In this document: one piece after another, positions 2,935 to 17,900 of the stretch | How the letters are laid out: each line of letters begins with the position of its first letter | How positions within the stretch are numbered: the first letter of the stretch is position 1 | Source of the DNA: Spirochaetales bacterium | GTDB taxonomy: Bacteria > Spirochaetota > Spirochaetia > Sphaerochaetales > Sphaerochaetaceae | Assembly: GCA_012514185.1 (NCBI GenBank) | Contig: JAAZAT010000045.1 | Coordinates: forward strand, 1-32,455 | Reading direction: 5' to 3' | DNA length: 32,455 nt | Notes under the pieces: model-generated | The model's input: the letters and a program-made list of their open reading frames with translations, nothing else | Databases searched by the model: none | Told to the model about the DNA's origin: nothing | Translations under genes and position numbers: made by a program

Positions 2935-5900
2935 CTACATAAGGCGTTGCAGCTTCTCCATCAAGAACAAGGCCTTGTCCTTGAGAGAAACCGCATCGGT
3001 TTTCATATACATAACATTCATTCGTCTCATATCAAGCCAGATGCTCTTATTGCTCAGGGCGATGAGATTCATGACCTTGTTAACATTCAAATCCGCAACC
3101 TTGCCGAACTCAACGGAAACCACACCCTTGCGGTCGGTCAGGTGGATGATCGAGAGCTTGCGGCAGATGATCTTGATTTCGGCGATGTACAGCAGGTTCG
3201 CCACCTCGACCGGAGGAGGCCCGAAACGGTCGGACAACTCGCTGGCCAGGCCTTGCAGCTGCTCGTCGTTGACGATGGATGAAATCTTGCGGTAGATATC
3301 GAATTTGACCGAAGCTGCCTTGATATAGGTGTCAGGAATAAAGCCTGTATAGTCAAGTTCCAGAAACACTTCCTTTTCTTCTTCCCTGACCCCTTCGGCC
3401 TGCAGGTCCCTGATCGCCTCATCCAGGATGCGGATATACATATCAAGGCCGACCGAAGCCAGATGGCCGCTTTGTTCGCGCCCGAGCAGGTTCCCGGTCC
3501 CCCTGAGTTCCATATCCTTCATCGCCACCTTGAAGCCGCTGCCCAACTCAGTGTGTTCACTGATGATCTTCAGCCGCTTGAGGGCGATCTCGCTGAGGGC
3601 GCTCCCCTGCGGGTAGAAAAGATATGCATAGGCTTGGCTGTCGTTCCGCCCCACCCTTCCACGGAGTTGGTACAACTGGCTCAGTCCGTAGCGGTCCGCG
3701 CGGTCGATGATGATGGTGTTGACGTTTGGGATGTCAATGCCGTTCTCGATTATGGTGGTGGAGACCAGCACCTGGATGCCTTCATGGATGAACCGACGCA
3801 TCGTGTCCTCGAGCTTGGTGCTGTCCATCTGCCCATGAGCGCTCTCAATGATGACGTCAGGCAGCAGCTTGGTCAGCTGGAACACAACCTCATCAAGACT
3901 TTCGATCCGATTGTGCAGGAAGAAGACCTGGCCTCCACGGGAAACCTCATCGCGGATGGCCCGGACAATGGTTTGCTCATCATATTCACCGATATAGGTC
4001 TGAATGGGTCTGCGTGCGATCGGGGGGGTGGCAAGCAGGGACATGTCACGAATCTTCAAGAGCGACATATACAGGGTCCTGGGAATCGGGGTGGCACTCA
4101 AGGAGAGCGAGTCGATGCTCGCCCTCAGCGTCTTGATCCGTTCCTTGTCCTTGACACCAAAGCGCTGTTCCTCATCCACCACCAACAACCCAAGATCACG
4201 GTACATGATATCCTTCTGTAAAATCCTGTGGGTTCCAAACAGCACATCCACCTTGCCTTCTGCAAGGCCGATGAGTGTCTGCTTCTGCTCTTTTTTTGCC
4301 ACAATCCTCGACAGTTGTGCACAACGGATGGGAAAGTTCCCCACCCGTTTGAGAAAATTCTGATAATGCTGTTCAGCTAAAATGGTTGTCGGGGCCAGAA
4401 AGGCGACTTGTTTGCCACCCATGACAGCCTTGAATACGGCGCGAAAGGCAATTTCCGTCTTTCCGTAGCCTACGTCGCCGCAAACCAGGCGGTCCATGAC
4501 GATCGGCTTCTCCATATCTTCCTTGATATCCTCGATGCAGGTCAGCTGGTCGGCTGTTTCATCGAAGGGAAATGAGGCTTCGAACTGCAGTTGCCAGTCG
4601 GTATCCTTGGGGAAGGCGAATCCGATGCTGTTCTTGCGTTTTGCATACAACGCGATGAGGTGCTTTGCCAAATCCTCGGCATTCTTCCGGGCTTTGGCTT
4701 TCTTGTTCTCCCATCCCTGGCCTCCAAGCTTGTCCTTTTTCGGCAGTCCTGTGTCGCTGCCGATATAGCGCTGGACCAGGTTTGCCTGTTCAATCGGGAC
4801 ATAGAGCATCTCATTATTGGCGTAGGCGATTTTTATGAAGTCGCGTTCACGGTCGAAACTGGAGACCCGGTCGATCTTGACAAACTGCCCTACCCCGTAA
4901 TTCACATGGACAACATAGTCGCCTTCATTCAGGTCGACGAAGGAATCGAGTGCGGAGGTCTGCGTATGCTGAAGTGTCTTTATCACCTGCCGCCTGCGTC
5001 CGAAAATTTCGTGCTCGCAGATGGCAACGACTTTCAGCGAGGGAATGCCGAACCCGCCGCTGATCGCCCGATCCTCCCACCCGAGGAAGGGAAAGGCGCT
5101 CAGCATCTGCATCAACCGTTGCTTTTGCAGTTGGTTCTCGGTGAAGATCACCACACTCCAACCCTGCTTGTCCAGACTCTTCAAATCTTCTTTGAGCAAG
5201 GTGAAGTTCCCGAAATAGGAACGAGGTCCCTCGATGTCGAACCGATAAGCCTCCTGGTTCTGACCGGCAATATCGTACAGGGTTATGCCAAAGCAGCACG
5301 TTTTCTGCAGGGATGGGAAATCGAAGAGCAAGACATCGGGTTTTGGGGCCTCACGGTCTTCCAGAAACGCCTGGCGATAGAGGGCCTTGGCTTCCACCTG
5401 CAGGCTGTGATAACTGGTTGCCAGCCGCTGGTCGCCGATGAAACAGAACAAGTCGTCGTCATGCACATACGCTCCAATCGAACTGGTGGCCAATTCACTG
5501 GTTGCATCCACCAGACAGAGGGTGAGCTTGCCGACCGTGGTGATGCTCTCCTGGGTGATGGGGTTGTAGCGTGCAATCTTGCCCACCGTATCCCAGTCGG
5601 CATAAATCCGGTACGGATTTTCGCTTTCATACGGGAAAATATCCAGCACTTCACCGCGCAACGAGTACTCGCCCATAGCCGATGTCGATACAGTATGGAG
5701 ATAGCCCGCATTGGCAAGCTGTTGGGAGAAGGAGGCGGTGTCGAAGACAGATCCTACTTTGATGGTAAGCGATGCCTGTTTCAGTGTTGCCGGGCTTACG
5801 AGCGGAGAAACAAACGGCCTGAGGTGGGTTACCACCACGCCCTGTTTCAACTCCTGGATCTGCATCAACCGACTCAGTTGGTCGTACTCCACATTGTCGG

Positions 5901-6222
5901 CATTGAAAGGGGTGTATAATTTCCTCCCGTTCCCGCCCAGGTAGACGATCTTGGTTTCACTGTTGGAGAGCGGCGTCTGCATGACTTCAGCACCGTTTAC
6001 CAAGAATCCGCTGTCCTTGAGCAACTGCTGTGCACTCTCCTCGGTAGGACAAACCGCCCAGACCCTGCCTGCATGTTTACGACTGATCAACCTGAGGAAC
6101 TGAGCTAAAGGGTACCCCTCAAGCCCTTGGATGGCGAGGCGGTTAGACCCTGCTCCATATGCCTTGTAAGCGTTGCTTGTTTTGATATAGGATTGCACAA
6201 GGGTGGAAATTGGCGTTTGCAT
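2935..6222 (-). CDS. mfd: Transcription-repair coupling factor (Mfd)
   Basis: Mfd displaces RNA polymerase stalled at DNA lesions and recruits UvrA. The product is about 1,095 residues, normal for the family. The N-terminal third is the UvrB-like module. Next is the polymerase-interacting segment (NEGDYVVHVNYGVGQF), then the RecG-like translocase with Walker A CGDVGYGKTEIAF (about residue 585), DEEQRFGV (about 683) and QLRGRVGR, then the TRG motif region and the C-terminal autoinhibitory domain. The frame stays open to 6357, but that overlaps the divergent gene. Real starts are the ATGs at 6231 or 6222; an AGGG lies 11 nt before the latter. The gene is followed at once by trmB. Confidence 0.95.
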   Translation of the reverse strand: MQTPISTLVQSYIKTSNAYKAYGAGSNRLAIQGLEGYPLAQFLRLISRKHAGRVWAVCPTEESAQQLLKDSGFLVNGAEVMQTPLSNSETKIVYLGGNGRKLYTPFNADNVEYDQLSRLMQIQELKQGVVVTHLRPFVSPLVSPATLKQASLTIKVGSVFDTASFSQQLANAGYLHTVSTSAMGEYSLRGEVLDIFPYESENPYRIYADWDTVGKIARYNPITQESITTVGKLTLCLVDATSELATSSIGAYVHDDDLFCFIGDQRLATSYHSLQVEAKALYRQAFLEDREAPKPDVLLFDFPSLQKTCCFGITLYDIAGQNQEAYRFDIEGPRSYFGNFTLLKEDLKSLDKQGWSVVIFTENQLQKQRLMQMLSAFPFLGWEDRAISGGFGIPSLKVVAICEHEIFGRRRQVIKTLQHTQTSALDSFVDLNEGDYVVHVNYGVGQFVKIDRVSSFDRERDFIKIAYANNEMLYVPIEQANLVQRYIGSDTGLPKKDKLGGQGWENKKAKARKNAEDLAKHLIALYAKRKNSIGFAFPKDTDWQLQFEASFPFDETADQLTCIEDIKEDMEKPIVMDRLVCGDVGYGKTEIAFRAVFKAVMGGKQVAFLAPTTILAEQHYQNFLKRVGNFPIRCAQLSRIVAKKEQKQTLIGLAEGKVDVLFGTHRILQKDIMYRDLGLLVVDEEQRFGVKDKERIKTLRASIDSLSLSATPIPRTLYMSLLKIRDMSLLATPPIARRPIQTYIGEYDEQTIVRAIRDEVSRGGQVFFLHNRIESLDEVVFQLTKLLPDVIIESAHGQMDSTKLEDTMRRFIHEGIQVLVSTTIIENGIDIPNVNTIIIDRADRYGLSQLYQLRGRVGRNDSQAYAYLFYPQGSALSEIALKRLKIISEHTELGSGFKVAMKDMELRGTGNLLGREQSGHLASVGLDMYIRILDEAIRDLQAEGVREEEKEVFLELDYTGFIPDTYIKAASVKFDIYRKISSIVNDEQLQGLASELSDRFGPPPVEVANLLYIAEIKIICRKLSIIHLTDRKGVVSVEFGKVADLNVNKVMNLIALSNKSIWLDMRRMNVMYMKTDAVSLKDKALFLMEKLQRLM

Positions 6223-6261
6223 AAGCGCCATTACCCTATCATGAGCGGGAAGGTTATGCAA
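6217..6261. repeat. Inverted repeat spanning the mfd / phosphatase divergent starts
   Basis: Perfect 8-bp arms TTGCATAA (6217-6224) and TTATGCAA (6254-6261) are separated by 29 bp. The left arm contains the mfd ATG at 6222 and the right arm ends 4 bp before the phosphatase ATG. The whole divergent spacer is only 43 bp, so both promoters must lie here or within the coding regions. No convincing -35/-10 pair was found. Confidence 0.4.
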
Positions 6262-6265
6262 TACA

Positions 6266-7072
6266 ATGGATAGAATACTCGACCAAAAGGCATTGGATGC
6301 CTTGGCCCTGGTTGTACAGGATGCCGGCAGAAAAGCAAAAGAACAGCAACAGTCCATTCATCGTTCCTACAAGAGCGATGGAACGGTCATTACTGAAACC
6401 GACTTGGCCATATCCCAACGAATCCTGGGTGTTGTTGCCGAGCTCTTCGAGGATGTGAACATCATCAGCGAGGAGACGCTCACCCCGTTTGATGAGGATG
6501 CTCCCTATACCTTCGTCCTCGATCCGATCGATGGAACGGATGTCTACTCTCAAGGCCTGCCCTCCTGGGCGGTGGCTCTGGGCATCCTGGATAAAAACAG
6601 GAAACCGGTGGGGGCCATGATCAGTGCACCGCGCTGGGGGCTAGGAGAGGATGAGTTGTTCCTGCGTCTCGATCCAGGCAAGCCCCTGACCATAAACGGA
6701 AAACCGTTTTTCATCACCTCCGACAAGGACTTCCCCCACCAGATCACCATGGGTTCAAGCGGCCAGCGACTTATGGATTTCTCCCGCTATGAAGGGAAAA
6801 TCCGCATATTCGGCTCATCGATCCTGCACATGCTCAGCCCGGTGCTCTACGACCACATCCAAGGCTGTGTAAACCAGAGTTGCTACGTCTGGGATATTGC
6901 GGCAGCCCATGCAGTGCTTCTCAGCGCGGGAATGGATATCGAGTATGTCGACGGAACGCCGTTCGTCTACGACGATGCATTTCTTTTGGAACGCAAACCC
7001 TTCTCTCCTTCCTTCTATGCAGGGACAAAGGCATGCATCAAGGCGCTGAGGGAAGTACTGCCCGCTAAATAG
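6266..7072 (+). CDS. Inositol monophosphatase family protein
   Basis: The 268-residue product has the metal-binding motifs of the Mg2+-dependent, Li+-sensitive phosphatase superfamily: ISEE (about residue 70), LDPIDGTD (about 87-94) and a late WDIAAAHAVLLSAG segment. Members hydrolyse inositol monophosphate, fructose 1,6-bisphosphate or 3'-phosphoadenosine 5'-phosphate (CysQ), and the sequence alone does not decide which. It is probably cytoplasmic, as no signal peptide is present. The start is an ATG 12 nt after GGGAAGG. Its last 8 nt overlap the convergent queuosine-precursor transporter gene. Confidence 0.85.
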   Translation: MDRILDQKALDALALVVQDAGRKAKEQQQSIHRSYKSDGTVITETDLAISQRILGVVAELFEDVNIISEETLTPFDEDAPYTFVLDPIDGTDVYSQGLPSWAVALGILDKNRKPVGAMISAPRWGLGEDELFLRLDPGKPLTINGKPFFITSDKDFPHQITMGSSGQRLMDFSRYEGKIRIFGSSILHMLSPVLYDHIQGCVNQSCYVWDIAAAHAVLLSAGMDIEYVDGTPFVYDDAFLLERKPFSPSFYAGTKACIKALREVLPAK

Positions 7073-10806: not shown

Positions 10807-11280
10807 ATGGCTGAATTATATGCACTGCCCTTGGTTTGCCTGCTCTTGAACTTTCTCGCCTTCGCCGCCTGCCTGCGTTTCCTGTTCTCACGCCAAGGCT
10901 TGTACTGGATCGTCCCTCTCCTGTTGACCTTGTTCATCCTGTGGCCGAACGCTCTCAATCTCTACCGGGTCGCAAGCGATCCAGGGTCTATACCACTGCC
11001 CTACACCTACTCCGACCTGCAACCGCTTTTGCTCTCCCTTTTCTGGTATGCAATGATCGTCACCTTCCACTTCGCCCTGAAGAAGACGGTGCGCATCAAT
11101 CACTATGAGGAGCAGGTGCGCAAGAACCTGCATGAGGCCCGGTACCAGATGGCTGTGGATACCTTGGTGCATCAGCAGAAGGAACGACGCAGGAAACAGT
11201 ACTATACCAAGCAGGCGGCTGCGGTTCCTTCCATCGATGCCTATGACGAGCAGTGGACCGACCTGTTCGACCAGCGATGA
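10807..11280 (+). CDS. Small three-helix membrane protein of unknown function
   Basis: I do not recognise this 157-residue protein. It has three hydrophobic helices (about residues 6-27, 32-50 and 70-90). A soluble, strongly charged tail follows, with a likely coiled coil containing QQKERRRKQYY. By the positive-inside rule the tail is probably cytoplasmic. An upstream in-frame codon at 10756 exists, but GGAGG (10798-10802) lies just before the ATG at 10807, which is preferred. Its TGA overlaps the next ATG in an ATGA, so it is translationally coupled to the shikimate kinase gene and shares its operon. Confidence 0.65.
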   Translation: MAELYALPLVCLLLNFLAFAACLRFLFSRQGLYWIVPLLLTLFILWPNALNLYRVASDPGSIPLPYTYSDLQPLLLSLFWYAMIVTFHFALKKTVRINHYEEQVRKNLHEARYQMAVDTLVHQQKERRRKQYYTKQAAAVPSIDAYDEQWTDLFDQR

Positions 11281-11813
11281 GTATGGAAGGCCATCTTTTT
11301 TTCTGCGGGATCAAGCACAGCGGGAAATCCACGCTCGGACGCTTGTATGCAAAAGCAAACAATCTGGCCTGGGTGGATTTGGACGACCTGATACTGAAGT
11401 CCATTGCACCCTGCCTGAGCATACGAGCCTATTACAAGCAGGAGGGCCAAGCAGCCTTCCAGAACCAGGAAGTCAGTTCGCTGAAGAACTTTCTCTTTTC
11501 GCAAACACAGCGCACCGTGATAAGCCTTGGAGGCGGAGCCTCGGACAACAACGAGTTGCTCAGCCTTGCAAAAACCCATGGAAAGCTCATCTACCTGATG
11601 GTTGAGGAATCGGTGCTGCTTGCAAGGATTCTCAACGGCGGGGTTCCTCCCTTCTTGGACGAGACGGACCCGAAAGGCTCATTCCACACCCTGTATGCAA
11701 GAAGACATGCAATCTATGGAAACATCTGTGATGTTTTGGTACAATTACCAAATTATCCCGATATCCGCGATACAGCCGACTTCCTTGTGCAAACTCTCAA
11801 GAGCGAGGTATGA
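11277..11813 (+). CDS. aroK: Shikimate kinase-like protein (atypical)
   Basis: Shikimate kinase transfers phosphate from ATP to the 3-OH of shikimate. The 178-residue product has a P-loop GIKHSGKST (residues 11-19), the DLD substrate/metal motif (34-36), SLGGGA (84-89) and the late Arg in YARRHAIY (about 142). Two conserved arginines look absent. The shikimate-binding Arg of the usual GFR segment aligns with Gln62 in AAFQNQE. The lid motif RPLL is replaced by GGVPPFL. Position directly before aroC supports the role. The start codon overlaps the previous stop (ATGA), with an alternative ATG two codons later. Confidence 0.78.
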   Translation: MSMEGHLFFCGIKHSGKSTLGRLYAKANNLAWVDLDDLILKSIAPCLSIRAYYKQEGQAAFQNQEVSSLKNFLFSQTQRTVISLGGGASDNNELLSLAKTHGKLIYLMVEESVLLARILNGGVPPFLDETDPKGSFHTLYARRHAIYGNICDVLVQLPNYPDIRDTADFLVQTLKSEV

Positions 11814-11814
11814 A

Positions 11815-12864
11815 ATGGGTCACAACAGCTTTGGAAATGCATTTACCGTCACCACCTTCGGCGAGTCCCACGGCCCCGCCCTCGGTGTCATCATCGACGG
11901 GGTGGAAAGCAATTTCAAGATTGACATGCAGGCGCTGCAAAATCAGATGAACCGTCGTCGTCCGGGGGGCAATCCCACCGGGACCAAGCGCAATGAAATC
12001 GATGAACTCTCCATTCTTTCAGGGGTGTACGAAGGGTATACCACCGGCACCCCGATTGCCATGATACTGTACAGCACCAACCAAAAATCATCCGATTACG
12101 ACCACCTGAAGGATGTCTTCCGTCCAGGGCACGCTGACTGGACCTTTTACAAGAAGTATGGGATCCGAGACATCCGCGGCGGCGGCAGGTCCAGCGGGAG
12201 AGAAACCAGCGCACGGGTCGCTGCAGGGGCTTTGGCCATGCAGCTGCTTGCAAAACGGGGAATAACGATCCAAGCCGGCACGGTGCAAGTAGGCTCGATA
12301 GTCGCCCAGGCACGGAATTGGGATGAGACGGACAATGTTCTGAGCTGCCCCGACGCGGTTGCTGCACAGCAAATGGTGGACTTGATCGAACAAGTACGAG
12401 CAGAGAACGACAGCATCGGCGGCATTATCGAGTGCAGGGTCAACGGAGTCCCCGCCGGGCTCGGAGAGCCGGTATTCGGCAAGCTGCAGGCCCTGCTCAG
12501 CCATGCGGTGATGAGCATCGGGGCGGTGAAAGGAATCCAATTCGGTTCGGGTTTCGCCTGTGCTGCCATGAGGGGCAGCGAGTGCAACGACCAGAGAACC
12601 AGCGAAGGGTTTCTCTCGAACCATGCAGGAGGGATTTTGGGCGGCATCTCCAGCGGGCAGGAAATCGTCCTGCAGGCAGCCATCAAACCCACTTCCTCGA
12701 TCTCCAGGGTCCAGCAGACGGTCAACAAGAACAATGAGACGACAAGCTTGGTGGTGGAGGGCAGACACGACCCCTGCATCTGCCCACGCGCTGTCGTGGT
12801 GGTTGAGGCGATGGTGGCCATCACGCTGCTCGACCTCTATTACACCGCGTTTGGAAGAACATGA
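11815..12864 (+). CDS. aroC: Chorismate synthase
   Basis: AroC converts 5-enolpyruvylshikimate 3-phosphate to chorismate using reduced FMN. The 349-residue product has the signatures GESHGPALGV near the N-terminus, NRRRPGGNPTGTKRNE and GGGRSSGRETSARVAAGA, and a normal C-terminal RHDPCICPRAVVVVEAM block. The frame is open 213 nt further upstream, but the true N-terminus MGHNSFGN is set by the ATG at 11815, one base after the aroK stop codon and behind GAGCGAGG. Its stop overlaps the helicase start. Confidence 0.97.
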   Translation: MGHNSFGNAFTVTTFGESHGPALGVIIDGVESNFKIDMQALQNQMNRRRPGGNPTGTKRNEIDELSILSGVYEGYTTGTPIAMILYSTNQKSSDYDHLKDVFRPGHADWTFYKKYGIRDIRGGGRSSGRETSARVAAGALAMQLLAKRGITIQAGTVQVGSIVAQARNWDETDNVLSCPDAVAAQQMVDLIEQVRAENDSIGGIIECRVNGVPAGLGEPVFGKLQALLSHAVMSIGAVKGIQFGSGFACAAMRGSECNDQRTSEGFLSNHAGGILGGISSGQEIVLQAAIKPTSSISRVQQTVNKNNETTSLVVEGRHDPCICPRAVVVVEAMVAITLLDLYYTAFGRT

Positions 12865-14525
12865 TGCAAGACACCCCCCTGATCGTACAAAGCGACAAGA
12901 CCCTGCTCTTGGATGTCCATCACAAGGACAGTGAAGCCTGCCGTGCCGATTTGGTCCGCTTTTGTGAGTTGATCAAAAGCCCGGAACACATGCACACCTA
13001 TGCACTCTCCCCCATCTCCTTGTGGAATGCTGCCTCCTCGGGATTCGATGTGGATTCGGTTGTAGAGAGGCTCAAGGCATGGTCGAGATTTCCCGTTCCC
13101 GAAAGCATCCTGTTCTACGTCAAGGACATTGCATCGAGATGGGGGAAAGTCCGCCTGAGCGAAAGCGACGACCCCCGCTATTATCGGCTGTTCGTGGACA
13201 GTCAGCGGATCAAGACCGAGTTGATGCAGCGCAAGGCGCTGTCCAAGCTGCTGGTGGTCAAGGATGAGCACTCCTTCCTGTTGGAAACGTACGCACGAGG
13301 CGAGGTGAAACTGCAACTGATCAAAATCGGTTACCCGGTCGAGGACAGGGTGCCGCTCGTCAAAGGACCGGATGTACCGATCGCCCTGAGGAGTGAAACC
13401 CTCGGCGGCAAACCGTTTTCCGTCAGACCTTATCAGCAGATGGCCTCCGATGCCCTGCTTGGGGATCTGGGACCCGGTTGCGGCTTCGGCACCATTGTAC
13501 TGCCCTGCGGTTCGGGCAAGACCGTGGTGGGCATGCACATCATGCAACGGCTGTGCACCCGTACCTTGGTGGTGACCACCAATGTGGCGGCGGTGCACCA
13601 GTGGATGCAGGAAATTCAGGACAAGACCACGCTTGACAGCAGCCAGATCGGTGAATACACCGGCGAGCGCAAGGATCCAAGGGATGTGACGGTCTGCACT
13701 TATCAGGTGCTCACCTACCGTCCTGACAAGGAAGGACCGTTCCCTCATCTGGAATTGCTGACCAAGGGCCGTTGGGGCCTGATCATCTATGATGAAGTGC
13801 ATATGCTGCCCGCTCCTGTATTCAAGGTCACCGCAGAGCTGCAGGCAGTCTACCGCGTCGGGCTGACCGCGACCTTGGTGCGGGAGGACGGCAGGGAGGA
13901 CGAGGTGTTCAGCCTCGTCGGTCCAAAACGCTTCGATGTACCCTGGAACGAACTGCAACAGCAGGGCTTCATCGCCGAAGCATACTGCCACGAAATCCGC
14001 ATCGACCTACCCAAGGAGCTGGAGATTCCCTATGCACTGGCAACCAAGCGGGAAAAGTATCGCATGGCCAGCGAGAATCCCCTGAAGCTGGAGGTTGTGA
14101 AGGATTTGGTCAGCCGGCACCCGGATGATTTCATCCTGATCATCGGCCAGTACCTGGACCAGCTGAAACAGATTGCTGATGCATTCGGACTTCCCATCAT
14201 CACCGGCAGCACCCCGAATGCCAAGCGGGAGGAGCTGTACAAGGCATTCAAGGAAGGCGATTGCAGGATCCTGGTAGTCAGCAAGGTGGCCAATTTCGCC
14301 ATCGACCTGCCCGATGCATCGGTGGCCATCCAGGTCTCCGGCACCTTCGGGAGCCGGAGCGAGGAAGCACAGCGCCTGGGAAGAATTCTCAGGCCGAAAA
14401 ACCGATCGAGTTTCTTCTACTCGGTGGTGACCCGTTACTCCAATGAGGAGGAGTTTGCCTCCAACCGCCAAAAATTCCTTGCCGAGCAGGGTTATTCTTA
14501 TGAGATAGAGGTATGGACCAATTGA
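12861..14525 (+). CDS. XPB/Ssl2-type DNA helicase
   Basis: The product is a superfamily 2 translocase of the archaeal/eukaryotic XPB (ERCC3/Rad25) type, 554 residues. An N-terminal XPB domain contains IKSPEHMHTYALSPISLW. The helicase core has PCGSGKT (about residues 215-221), DEVH (about 311-314) and GLTATLVRED with the XPB-specific RED motif. Motif VI is EEAQRLGRILRPK near residue 505. XPB opens DNA in nucleotide excision repair and transcription in eukaryotes, and bacterial homologues are known in actinobacteria and treponemes. The ATG overlaps the aroC stop, and its 3' end overlaps the next gene by 13 nt. Confidence 0.93.
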   Translation: MMQDTPLIVQSDKTLLLDVHHKDSEACRADLVRFCELIKSPEHMHTYALSPISLWNAASSGFDVDSVVERLKAWSRFPVPESILFYVKDIASRWGKVRLSESDDPRYYRLFVDSQRIKTELMQRKALSKLLVVKDEHSFLLETYARGEVKLQLIKIGYPVEDRVPLVKGPDVPIALRSETLGGKPFSVRPYQQMASDALLGDLGPGCGFGTIVLPCGSGKTVVGMHIMQRLCTRTLVVTTNVAAVHQWMQEIQDKTTLDSSQIGEYTGERKDPRDVTVCTYQVLTYRPDKEGPFPHLELLTKGRWGLIIYDEVHMLPAPVFKVTAELQAVYRVGLTATLVREDGREDEVFSLVGPKRFDVPWNELQQQGFIAEAYCHEIRIDLPKELEIPYALATKREKYRMASENPLKLEVVKDLVSRHPDDFILIIGQYLDQLKQIADAFGLPIITGSTPNAKREELYKAFKEGDCRILVVSKVANFAIDLPDASVAIQVSGTFGSRSEEAQRLGRILRPKNRSSFFYSVVTRYSNEEEFASNRQKFLAEQGYSYEIEVWTN

Positions 14526-16414
14526 CCGATCATGCACAACAGCAATTCATGAAACTCCTGGGCCGCTACAGCGAGGACTCGTACTTCTATCTGGTGCGCA
14601 ATTACCTCGGAGTGGTGACCACGCCGTTCCATAAACCCCAGCTGACGGCAAGACTCTGCCAATTTTTCAGCCAGAAGACACACCAGGACCGCATGTTGGA
14701 ACTGCTGGACGAGCTCGACTTGGTCATCCTCAGCCTGCTCGCAGTCACCGGCCCCCTTCCATCGGAAGTTGTGATGGATTTGCTCAAAGGCTCCTACAGT
14801 TATGGCACGATTCTCAGGCGGGTGGCCAATTTGCAGGAGCGCCTGGTGCTTATGACCGATGAGGGCAGGCTTGTCTTCAATCCCCTGCTTGCTGAAGAAC
14901 TGGCGCTGCGGTGCAGCCTCAGGCCCCTGTTCGGTGAACACGCACAACAGGTTTCCTCCGCCCCGTATTGTAGTACCGAATTTGTGCGGGCCTACCTGTC
15001 GTTGGTCGCCAAAGAGTCCAAGGTTGCATTTCGTGAAGAGTACCTGCGCGTGTTCCCAAGCTTCGAACCGCCGCGGCTTCAACAGCTGTTCAACGCCCTC
15101 ACCCAGGTGCTGATGCAGAATTTGGTTCTCACAGGAGATAAGAAAGTATCAATCGACTACGACAGGGCTGGGATGTTGCTGGAATTGGACGATCATCAGC
15201 TCGTATGTTTGTTGCTGTGCTCGCAGATGAGCACGTTCAGGGGAGAAAGCAGTTTCGCTTTTTGCTCCGACCTGCTCTCTTACCTCGACGCGCTCATGCA
15301 GATCGACACAGCATCGCTCAAGCTTTTAATCCGCTCGCTTTCCCTAAAGCACGGCATAGCCTATGACAGTGAGGTGCTGACTCATCTGTCGACTTGGGGT
15401 GTCATCACCCTCGACGGGGTGTGGAAGGTCGCCGATATCCAGACTGGACAGCAAACCAATGCCTTGTTGATCGACAGCGACCAGACGATCAGCTATCTGG
15501 GAAGCCGGCCCAAGGATGACATCCTCTATCGATTCACCTTCATCGAGGTGCTCGACCGCCAAAAACGGTACCGCCTGACCAAGGAAAGTTTTCTTTGGGG
15601 TTTGGACTCGGGTCTCAGCTACCAGGAAATCGAGCGGTATCTGCAAGACAACAGCAGTACGGCAATGCACTCCTTGCTGCTCAAGCAGCTCGGCATGCTC
15701 AATGAACGGTACCAAGCCATCACCGTGTATGACGCACTGTTGCTAAGCTGTGATGAAAGGACAGCCCATGTCGTCCAAAACCTTCCGACCCTGGCCGAGC
15801 ACCGATACAAGAGCATCAGCCCCACCCTGTTTCTGATGCGGCGCGATACCGAGGAGATATGGCGGCAGATCCTGGCCTCAGCCGGCCTGCTTGCCGGTGC
15901 TACCAGGTCGTACGAGAAAATCGAGGTGCAAAAACAAAAAGAAGCACTCTCGCTCTCCCTGCTTTTGCAACAGGCGCTGCGATGCCGTCGTTGTACGACA
16001 GCCAAGGTGGAAGGCGATACGGTCCGGCCGATGATCGATGAGTCCTTGCAGAGGGAAATCGAGTCATCTTCGTTCTCCCAAGCACAAAAACAGGATTTGC
16101 TGCACCGCTTCCACGCAAAAATGATTCTTTCGTCAAGCCAAATTGTGGCCCAGGTGATCAATACCACAATTGAAGCTGGAGGCTTTGACTACCAGGGCAA
16201 GGTCAGCCTGGCCCGGCAGGCTGTCGGGCGCAAGGATGTAGCTTTGCAATTGCAGCTAACCGACCAGGAATTGGTAGTCCAAGCCCTCGAGGTGGCCTAT
16301 ACGGTCCAACGGGAAGCCCTGCTGAAAGCAGCGGTCATGCCTACCATGGAAGTGAAAATCCTGCCCATCAGCAAGATTTTCCTCATACGGCTGGTTCGAT
16401 TTCATGTCTCGTAA
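14513..16414 (+). CDS. XPB-partner protein with helicase-associated (PF13625-like) domain
   Basis: The 633-residue, mostly helical protein has no Walker motifs, signal peptide or membrane helices. Residues about 318-440 follow the pattern of the helicase-associated XPB/Ssl2 N-terminal-like domain: SDQTISYLGSRPKDDILYRF, YRLTKESFLWGLDSGLSYQE and a later YDALLLSCDE. The N-terminal half looks like repeated winged-helix units and the C-terminus contains a CRRC pair. It overlaps the XPB gene by 13 nt. A similar arrangement is known in mycobacteria, where a long hypothetical (Rv0862c) sits next to XPB (Rv0861c). I infer a physical or functional partner. Its final codon lies 1 nt from the convergent aroDE stop. 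Confidence 0.68.
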   Translation: MDQLTDHAQQQFMKLLGRYSEDSYFYLVRNYLGVVTTPFHKPQLTARLCQFFSQKTHQDRMLELLDELDLVILSLLAVTGPLPSEVVMDLLKGSYSYGTILRRVANLQERLVLMTDEGRLVFNPLLAEELALRCSLRPLFGEHAQQVSSAPYCSTEFVRAYLSLVAKESKVAFREEYLRVFPSFEPPRLQQLFNALTQVLMQNLVLTGDKKVSIDYDRAGMLLELDDHQLVCLLLCSQMSTFRGESSFAFCSDLLSYLDALMQIDTASLKLLIRSLSLKHGIAYDSEVLTHLSTWGVITLDGVWKVADIQTGQQTNALLIDSDQTISYLGSRPKDDILYRFTFIEVLDRQKRYRLTKESFLWGLDSGLSYQEIERYLQDNSSTAMHSLLLKQLGMLNERYQAITVYDALLLSCDERTAHVVQNLPTLAEHRYKSISPTLFLMRRDTEEIWRQILASAGLLAGATRSYEKIEVQKQKEALSLSLLLQQALRCRRCTTAKVEGDTVRPMIDESLQREIESSSFSQAQKQDLLHRFHAKMILSSSQIVAQVINTTIEAGGFDYQGKVSLARQAVGRKDVALQLQLTDQELVVQALEVAYTVQREALLKAAVMPTMEVKILPISKIFLIRLVRFHVS

Positions 16415-16415
16415 A

Positions 16416-17900
16416 TCAGATGTCCGCCTGGATCCAGTGGGGATAGTGATAACCGGTGAAGGCTTCGAACTGCAGTTTGCCCTGCTCCATCAGCATCTGT
16501 GAGCCTCCGATGATGGTGCATCCAGCTTCCATGGCACGGTTCAAGAACCGAGTCAGTTTGGGATCGTATACCAGATCGTAGGCGATTTCCTTTCCTGTGA
16601 AGCTGAAGGATGGAATACTCTCCTCACCGCTGAGAGACCCCATGCCGACAGAGGTGGTCTGCACAACCAGCTCAACGCTCCCGTTGTACAGATGGGCGTT
16701 TTCCAAGGTATCGAATGAGCTCATCGTCTCTGATGCAAGCGTTTTGGCATGCTCGAGGCTGCGGTTCAGGATGGTGACCTTCACCCCATGATTGTGAAGC
16801 GCCCAGACCACCGCCCGGGCGGCTCCTCCTGCCCCTACGACCAAGGCGTTCTTGATCTCACCCTTGCCAAGCGGTTCGGAAATCGGGGCCAAGAATCCGT
16901 AGTAATCGGTATTGATGCCTTTCCACATGTTCTGGATGCGTACCACTGTGTTGCAGGAACCGATCTGTTTCACCTCGCGGGTGATTCTTCCCAAATACGG
17001 CTGTACGCTGCGCTTGTGCGGCACCGTCACGGAGAACCCATGGATTTGCAACAGCTCTGCCAGCTTGAAGAACGCCCGGACTGAATCGACCAGGAAGGGG
17101 ACATAGACGGCGTTGTACCGGATGGCTTCAAAGCCGGGATTATGGATTTTCGGGCTTGCCGTATGGTAAACAGGGTTGCCGATGATGCCGAAAATGTGAG
17201 TCTTGTCGTCAAGTTTGTCTGCACGATAGAGTTCACTCATCGCCCGGGCGCCGAGGTGGCCTAAAGCTGCCTGGCTGTCGGAACAGAAGCTGAGCAAGGA
17301 TCCGCACTTTTTGTACAATATGCGGGTGCAGATGCCGTAATCGCCCATGCCGATCACTATTTTTTCCTGTACACTTGCCAGTTCCTGTTCCACCCTGAAC
17401 AGGGTGATGACATCCATCATGCTCTGCGGGGTGACAGCAACCTTGGGGATGTCGCCTTTTGCCGCCAACTTGCTGATCCTTGCATAGATATCGGCAGGAA
17501 CGCACTCAAAGTTATGATACGATCGGATGATTTTTATCGAGCGCTGCCTCAGGCTCTGCTCGAGGTCCACTTTCTGCTCGAAGAGCGGGTCCTTGAACTT
17601 CAAATCGGCTTTCTTGACGTCTTCTTCAATATCGACATAGGCAAAATCGCCTTTTGCCGCCTCGTACAGCAGTTGCAGCCGCTGTTTCTCAGCCAGGGTG
17701 CAGGCACCCCCGTCACAGCTGCGCCTGAGCGTCAGGATCACCGGCAGGTCTACGGTGGAAGGAAAAGAAGAGGCGATTTTTTGTTCATCCGGGTGCAGGT
17801 AATCGAGACGGAGCTCTGCGAGGGAGATCCATTTGCGGTTGCGTTCAACTAATGCCCGGTTCTCCTCCAAGGTTGAGCCGGTAAGTGTAAGGCAAAGCAC
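16416..17900 (-). CDS. aroDE: Bifunctional 3-dehydroquinate dehydratase / shikimate dehydrogenase
   Basis: The 494-residue fusion covers two consecutive steps of the chorismate pathway. Residues 1 to about 215 are type I dehydroquinase: ELRLD, the catalytic His in IIRSYHNFE and the Schiff-base Lys in DIPKVAVTP. From about residue 235, shikimate dehydrogenase follows: FGIIGNPVYHTASPKIHN, VTVPHK with the catalytic Lys, GSCNTVV, NTD and the nucleotide loop VGAGGAARA. Both active sites look intact. The start codon is GTG (17898-17900) behind AGGAGG. It is convergent with the aroK-aroC-helicase operon, with which it shares the pathway but not the transcript. Confidence 0.94.
   Translation of the reverse strand: MLCLTLTGSTLEENRALVERNRKWISLAELRLDYLHPDEQKIASSFPSTVDLPVILTLRRSCDGGACTLAEKQRLQLLYEAAKGDFAYVDIEEDVKKADLKFKDPLFEQKVDLEQSLRQRSIKIIRSYHNFECVPADIYARISKLAAKGDIPKVAVTPQSMMDVITLFRVEQELASVQEKIVIGMGDYGICTRILYKKCGSLLSFCSDSQAALGHLGARAMSELYRADKLDDKTHIFGIIGNPVYHTASPKIHNPGFEAIRYNAVYVPFLVDSVRAFFKLAELLQIHGFSVTVPHKRSVQPYLGRITREVKQIGSCNTVVRIQNMWKGINTDYYGFLAPISEPLGKGEIKNALVVGAGGAARAVVWALHNHGVKVTILNRSLEHAKTLASETMSSFDTLENAHLYNGSVELVVQTTSVGMGSLSGEESIPSFSFTGKEIAYDLVYDPKLTRFLNRAMEAGCTIIGGSQMLMEQGKLQFEAFTGYHYPHWIQADI

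Follow-up and report, generated by a model that had tools for sequence, protein, structure and literature searches.

In TFIIH, the N-terminal domain of the helicase XPB has a counterpart of identical fold in p52, the clutch, with which it forms a pseudo-symmetric pair; p52 uses the clutch to anchor XPB and also stimulates its ATPase (PMC6422496, PMC9557730). A. fulgidus XPB has no N-terminal clutch domain, and purified M. tuberculosis XPB alone shows in vitro activity only at high concentration (PMC3353954). Archaeal XPB is found in a two-gene partnership with Bax1. Relatives of p52 have been stated not to exist in bacteria. We found no contrary report in the open literature, where matches were judged mostly by title and abstract and which leaves out subscription papers and most preprints.

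We analysed a window of 32,455 nucleotides from a Spirochaetales bacterium whose near relatives in our searches were Sphaerochaeta species. The window encodes an XPB-type helicase followed by a partner protein of 633 residues, and the four genes aroK, aroC, XPB and partner lie in this order on the forward strand (Table 1). A preliminary description had placed the pair inside an aro operon. This is accurate for the four forward-strand genes and inaccurate for aroDE, which converges on the partner gene from the reverse strand, so that the XPB pair forms the 3′ end of the aroK–aroC run. The same description had reported a coupling of aroC to XPB by ATGA, which is present, and a 13-nt overlap between XPB and partner, which is exact. 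This 13-nt overlap is identical in most congeners examined. In most of the Spirochaetia loci checked (L031-L109), aroDE is likewise convergent with the partner gene, and their 3′ ends abut or overlap. The window also carries the gene for Mfd, about 6.5 kb away from the XPB pair.

Table 1. Features of the XPB–partner locus and of related Deinococcus operons. Positions are those of the window, except for the Deinococcus genes, which carry the positions of their own loci.
Feature	Position	Strand	Evidence
Mfd transcription-repair coupling factor	2935-6357	-	TRCF, CarD-like RID and UvrB-interaction domains
Shikimate kinase aroK	11253-11813	+	PF01202, 86 bits; upstream of aroC, same strand
Chorismate synthase aroC	11815-12864	+	PF01264, 446 bits
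ATGA overlap, aroC stop/XPB start	12861-12864	+	Sequence
XPB-type SF2 DNA helicase, 554 aa	12861-14525	+	NF045503, 818.8 bits (cut-off 610)
XPB N-terminal domain (clutch, PF13625), residues 1-100	12861-13160	+	PF13625, 93.5 bits; homologous to partner clutch
XPB DRD-like domain, residues 98-166	13152-13358	+	Matches partner residues 402-460 by hhalign (Prob 77, E 2e-5)
Walker A GSGKT, residues 217-221	13509-13523	+	Conserved in alignment of 60
DEVH box, residues 311-314	13791-13802	+	DEV invariant, H at least 90% conserved (alignment of 60)
RED motif, residues 341-343	13881-13889	+	Invariant in alignment of 60
XPB/partner gene overlap, 13 nt	14513-14525	+	Sequence
p52/Tfb2-like XPB partner, 633 aa	14513-16414	+	PDB profile matches and Foldseek
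Partner N-terminal winged-helix half, residues 1-311	14513-15445	+	Separate model of this half: p52 at Foldseek ranks 1-2 (E 4.5e-3, 9.8e-3)
Partner clutch, residues 312-403	15446-15721	+	hhalign E 2e-15 with XPB NTD; residues 314-403 superimpose on human XPB NTD (Z 11.7, rmsd 2.1 A, 88 residues)
Partner p8/DRD-like domain, residues 404-460	15722-15892	+	Structure aligned into p52 C-terminal p8-binding domain; hhalign to p8, Prob 50
Partner C-terminal WYL-like domain, residues 541-633	16133-16411	+	Residues 557-632 vs PafBC 6sj9, Z 9.8
aroDE	16416-17900	-	Convergent with partner gene
Deinococcus small-protein genes	L130 6741-7070; L133 5744-6043; L134 5737-6084		

The helicase is the only XPB in the genome assembly and a full-motif member of the NCBIfam family ‘DNA repair helicase XPB’. 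Walker A, DEVH, RED and the motif VI sequence QRLGR are all conserved in an alignment of 60 sequences, in agreement with the earlier proposal of an XPB helicase with an intact RED motif. It belongs to the same bacterial XPB family as M. tuberculosis XPB (Rv0861c). XPB residues 7-133 match PF13625, with a score much above that of the partner. PF13625 is named ‘Helicase conserved C-terminal domain’, yet in XPB it forms the N-terminal domain, and a copy is also present in the partner. In both proteins this domain is the TFIIH clutch. A PF13625-like domain had been proposed for the partner from the outset; the match is real and recurs in all 26 partner homologues tested (best E 8e-12), while the partner from this window (residues 351-426) scores 24.1 bits, below the gathering score of 34.2.

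No NCBIfam or PADLOC family matches the partner. We aligned first 26 and then 90 of its relatives. Searched against the PDB, the profile of 90 homologues retrieved yeast Tfb2 first (E 5e-7) and human p52 at a similar level (7.7e-7), with the XPB N-terminal domain weaker (E 0.013). The Pfam p52/Tfb2 family (Pfam accession PF03849) did not match this partner and matched three of the 26 relatives (best E 0.012); these scores lie below the gathering threshold, so the partner is not filed in PF03849. The same family was silent against the partner’s own genome, as was the control of that search. The residues Y316, Y318, R337 and F338 of the human p52 interface are not clearly conserved in the partner, as judged by eye from the profile alignment.

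Predicted structure gives the same first match. An AlphaFold2 model built from the 90-homologue alignment (pLDDT 88.4, pTM 0.82) was searched with Foldseek, and ranks 1-21 were all p52/Tfb2 chains (best E 1.9e-8). VIA-align paired model residues 64-458 with p52 residues 47-459, which is nearly all of p52. In the predicted model the domains follow the p52 order of winged helices, clutch and p8-like domain, with a WYL-like domain appended. To see whether the p52 match depends on the clutch, we also folded residues 1-310 separately (pLDDT 91.7). Against 350,542 chains, p52 again took ranks 1 and 2, the first being the p52 N-terminal half (6tru), and the next match followed at E 0.25, a gap of about 25-fold. 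The sequence profile of this half alone did not retrieve p52, and its homology to p52 thus rests on predicted structure, at TM-scores of only 0.2-0.35 and with an rmsd inflated by domain motion.

The partner is also related to the helicase that it accompanies. With hhalign, partner residues 312-460 aligned with XPB residues 1-166 (Prob 98.9, E 3e-17), co-linearly over the clutch and the p8-like/DRD domain; unrelated domain pairs used as controls stayed at or under about 1%. This homology, which links the partner’s clutch and p8-like segment to the XPB N-terminal domain and its DRD, suggests, at the level of sequence, an old duplication. The p8-like domain additionally gave a weak alignment to TFIIH p8/Tfb5 (GTF2H5) itself (E 1.6e-4), with unrelated p8 pairings all below 1%; it resembles the p52 C-terminal domain by structure and p8, faintly, by sequence. 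A HMMER search of the PDB with the 57-residue p8-like profile, which is probably too short, found no p8 match. We recognised no separate p8-like gene in the window.

Such a duplication could also have given rise to the partner within bacteria, if the XPB N-terminal domain and DRD were copied there and fused to winged helices independently. The partner would then resemble p52 in function and not, as a whole, in descent. The clear homology of its clutch–CTD segment to XPB’s own N-terminal domain and DRD fits this scenario, as does an N-terminal half that sequence comparison does not recognise. However, the sequence profile favours p52 over the eukaryotic XPB N-terminal domain by four orders of magnitude, and the model of the N-terminal half taken by itself retrieves the p52 N-terminal half first. 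We therefore regard independent fusion as unlikely. We call the partner p52-like with fairly high confidence that it works like p52, to which it is probably also related by descent. Compared with TFIIH p52/Tfb2 (GTF2H4), the partner shares the domain order, the best PDB match by both profile and fold, and an association with XPB, here at the level of gene position; it differs in its greater length, its extra C-terminal domain and its score below the Pfam Tfb2 threshold.

The extra C-terminal domain has a WYL fold in the predicted model. Residues 557-631 superimpose on PafBC with an rmsd of 2.5 A over 73 residues, and BrxR, CapW and DriD are also similar (Z 8-10 across these regulators). By sequence, the WYL family (Pfam accession PF13280) matched one of 26 partner homologues (E 0.015). 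The best-conserved partner motif in Spirochaetia, EAGGFDYQGK (16172-16201, residues 554-563), lies at the start of this domain and is not evident in partners of other phyla. In contrast to PafBC, BrxR, CapW and DriD, the partner carries its WYL-like domain at the end of a clutch-bearing, p52-like protein encoded beside XPB. The WYL resemblance, together with the winged helices, might indicate that the main role of the partner is not structural and that it acts as a WYL-type transcription regulator or as a sensor of single strands, with XPB or other genes under its control. We consider this improbable: the clutch is common to partner, XPB and p52, the p52 layout extends over partner residues 64-458, and the partner co-occurs with XPB even where the two genes are unlinked.

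We surveyed 148 Spirochaetia genomes and identified both genes in 112, XPB only in four, the partner only in one and neither in 31. Among the 112, the partner gene lies directly downstream of XPB in 78 and within 2.5 kb in nine; in the other 25 it is non-adjacent or on another contig. Eight of these unlinked pairs are on the same contig and clearly apart, and some of those on different contigs may reflect assembly breaks. A reduced 1.1-Mb genome (G098) keeps both genes, unlinked. The nominal probability of this co-occurrence (P 2e-26) is too small, because related genomes were counted as independent. Five genomes (G034, G049, G053, G070 and G139) have partner matches with one internal stop, which may be pseudogenes, sequencing errors or read-through artefacts. 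Mutual information between the two proteins, calculated from 64 pairs, was dominated by phylogeny, and the combination of partner clutch and XPB N-terminal domain was not enriched.

The pair extends beyond spirochaetes. Of the ten bacterial-type XPB loci that we drew from a plasmid collection, all have a partner within about 8 kb; they come from Actinomyces, Tsukamurella, Arthrobacter, Nonomuraea, Nocardia, Gloeocapsopsis, Deinococcus (three loci) and Paenibacillus. The Gloeocapsopsis partner is the weakest of the ten, matching in the clutch only (E 4e-5) and having no WYL-like end. Actinomycetota, Deinococcota, Bacillota and Cyanobacteriota thus join the spirochaetes, and gene order, strand and neighbours of the pair differ between phyla. 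This survey of gene neighbourhoods, which the preliminary description had suggested, bears out its expectations: the partner homologues carry PF13625, and the partner adjoins XPB in other phyla as well as in the majority of Spirochaetia. The five phyla with linkage include Mycobacteriales in the form of Tsukamurella and Nocardia, relatives of M. tuberculosis. Rv0862c, which had been put forward as the mycobacterial counterpart, is named in no title or abstract among the open-literature papers that mention it.

Could the two proteins be co-transcribed neighbours of aro genes that share no function? Overlapping genes and a conserved aro context might persist by chance within one clade, but both genes are present and unlinked in 25 genomes, they are linked in five phyla although neighbours and gene order differ, and the clutch domain is common to both proteins, which makes this very improbable. 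An anti-phage defence system, at which a weak match of the helicase to PADLOC PbeA (63.7 bits) could hint, is just as hard to credit, since the partner matches no defence family, PADLOC calls no defence system, the housekeeping synteny is fixed across the class, beside aroDE in most loci checked, and the pair is retained in the reduced genome.

The archaeal partnership is of a different kind. Bax1 (DUF790, Pfam accession PF05626) belongs to a different family, of nucleases, and none of 60 Spirochaetia genomes has a match above the cut-off, with positive controls in archaea and Deinobacterium; this supports the pairing without the archaeal nuclease that was first proposed. At three of three haloarchaeal XPB loci we saw no partner-like neighbour. 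The Pfam families for Tfb5 and Tfb4/p34 (Pfam accession PF03850) gave no match in 40 genomes, and the control genomes were silent as well.

Three Deinococcus plasmids contain a gene for a protein of 99-115 residues between XPB and the p52-like partner. This small protein matches the partner’s p8-like domain (Prob 94, E 1.3e-7), of which it is a free-standing relative, and has no match to p8 itself by sequence. It consists of a basic, AT-hook-like N-terminal segment followed by the p8-like domain. The partners at these loci (L130, L133 and L134) have a long insertion in the C-terminal third, where their own p8-like domain is also displaced (hmmsearch matches at profile positions 405-507). The Deinococcus operon looks like an XPB, p8-like and p52-like set encoded together.

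Taken together, these observations make it likely that the pair is a bacterial counterpart of the TFIIH translocase module, with XPB as motor and the p52-like partner as scaffold and activator, a complex and a function that we infer from profiles, predicted folds and gene association. The ‘two-protein machine’ of the preliminary description is plausible. In such a complex the partner clutch would pair face to face with the homologous XPB clutch, as p52 does with XPB in TFIIH, and would thereby tether XPB. The p8-like domain may cradle or support RecA2, and the partner would switch on the XPB motor as p52 does. DNA, perhaps single-stranded, may be contacted by the winged-helix part together with the WYL-like C-terminus, and the DNA-bound partner would direct XPB to open the duplex. 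With UvrB encoded in the genome and Mfd in the window, the pair would most likely act alongside UvrABC and Mfd in nucleotide excision repair or in repair linked to transcription, which is the least certain part of the proposal.

A TFIIH-like origin can be framed more broadly. Bacteria may hold a minimal machine (XPB-p52, or XPB-p8-p52 in Deinococcus) that is homologous to the TFIIH translocase module and either predates eukaryotes or is bacterial in origin, with p8, the p52 C-terminal domain and the XPB DRD as copies of one ancestral domain; we consider this view about as likely as not. A tree of XPB cores separates bacteria and eukaryotes from archaea (support 98/95), which is a lead only, since the tree is unrooted and has 20 rows and long branches.

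A p52-like partner beside XPB would overturn the premise of a 2012 study that bacteria have no p52 relatives, and the pair bears on the origin of TFIIH. A missing activator would explain why M. tuberculosis XPB is active only at high concentration, and the partner is a named missing component to add to purified bacterial XPB. The resulting two- or three-protein system would give access to the regulation of XPB in a setting free of the remaining TFIIH subunits.
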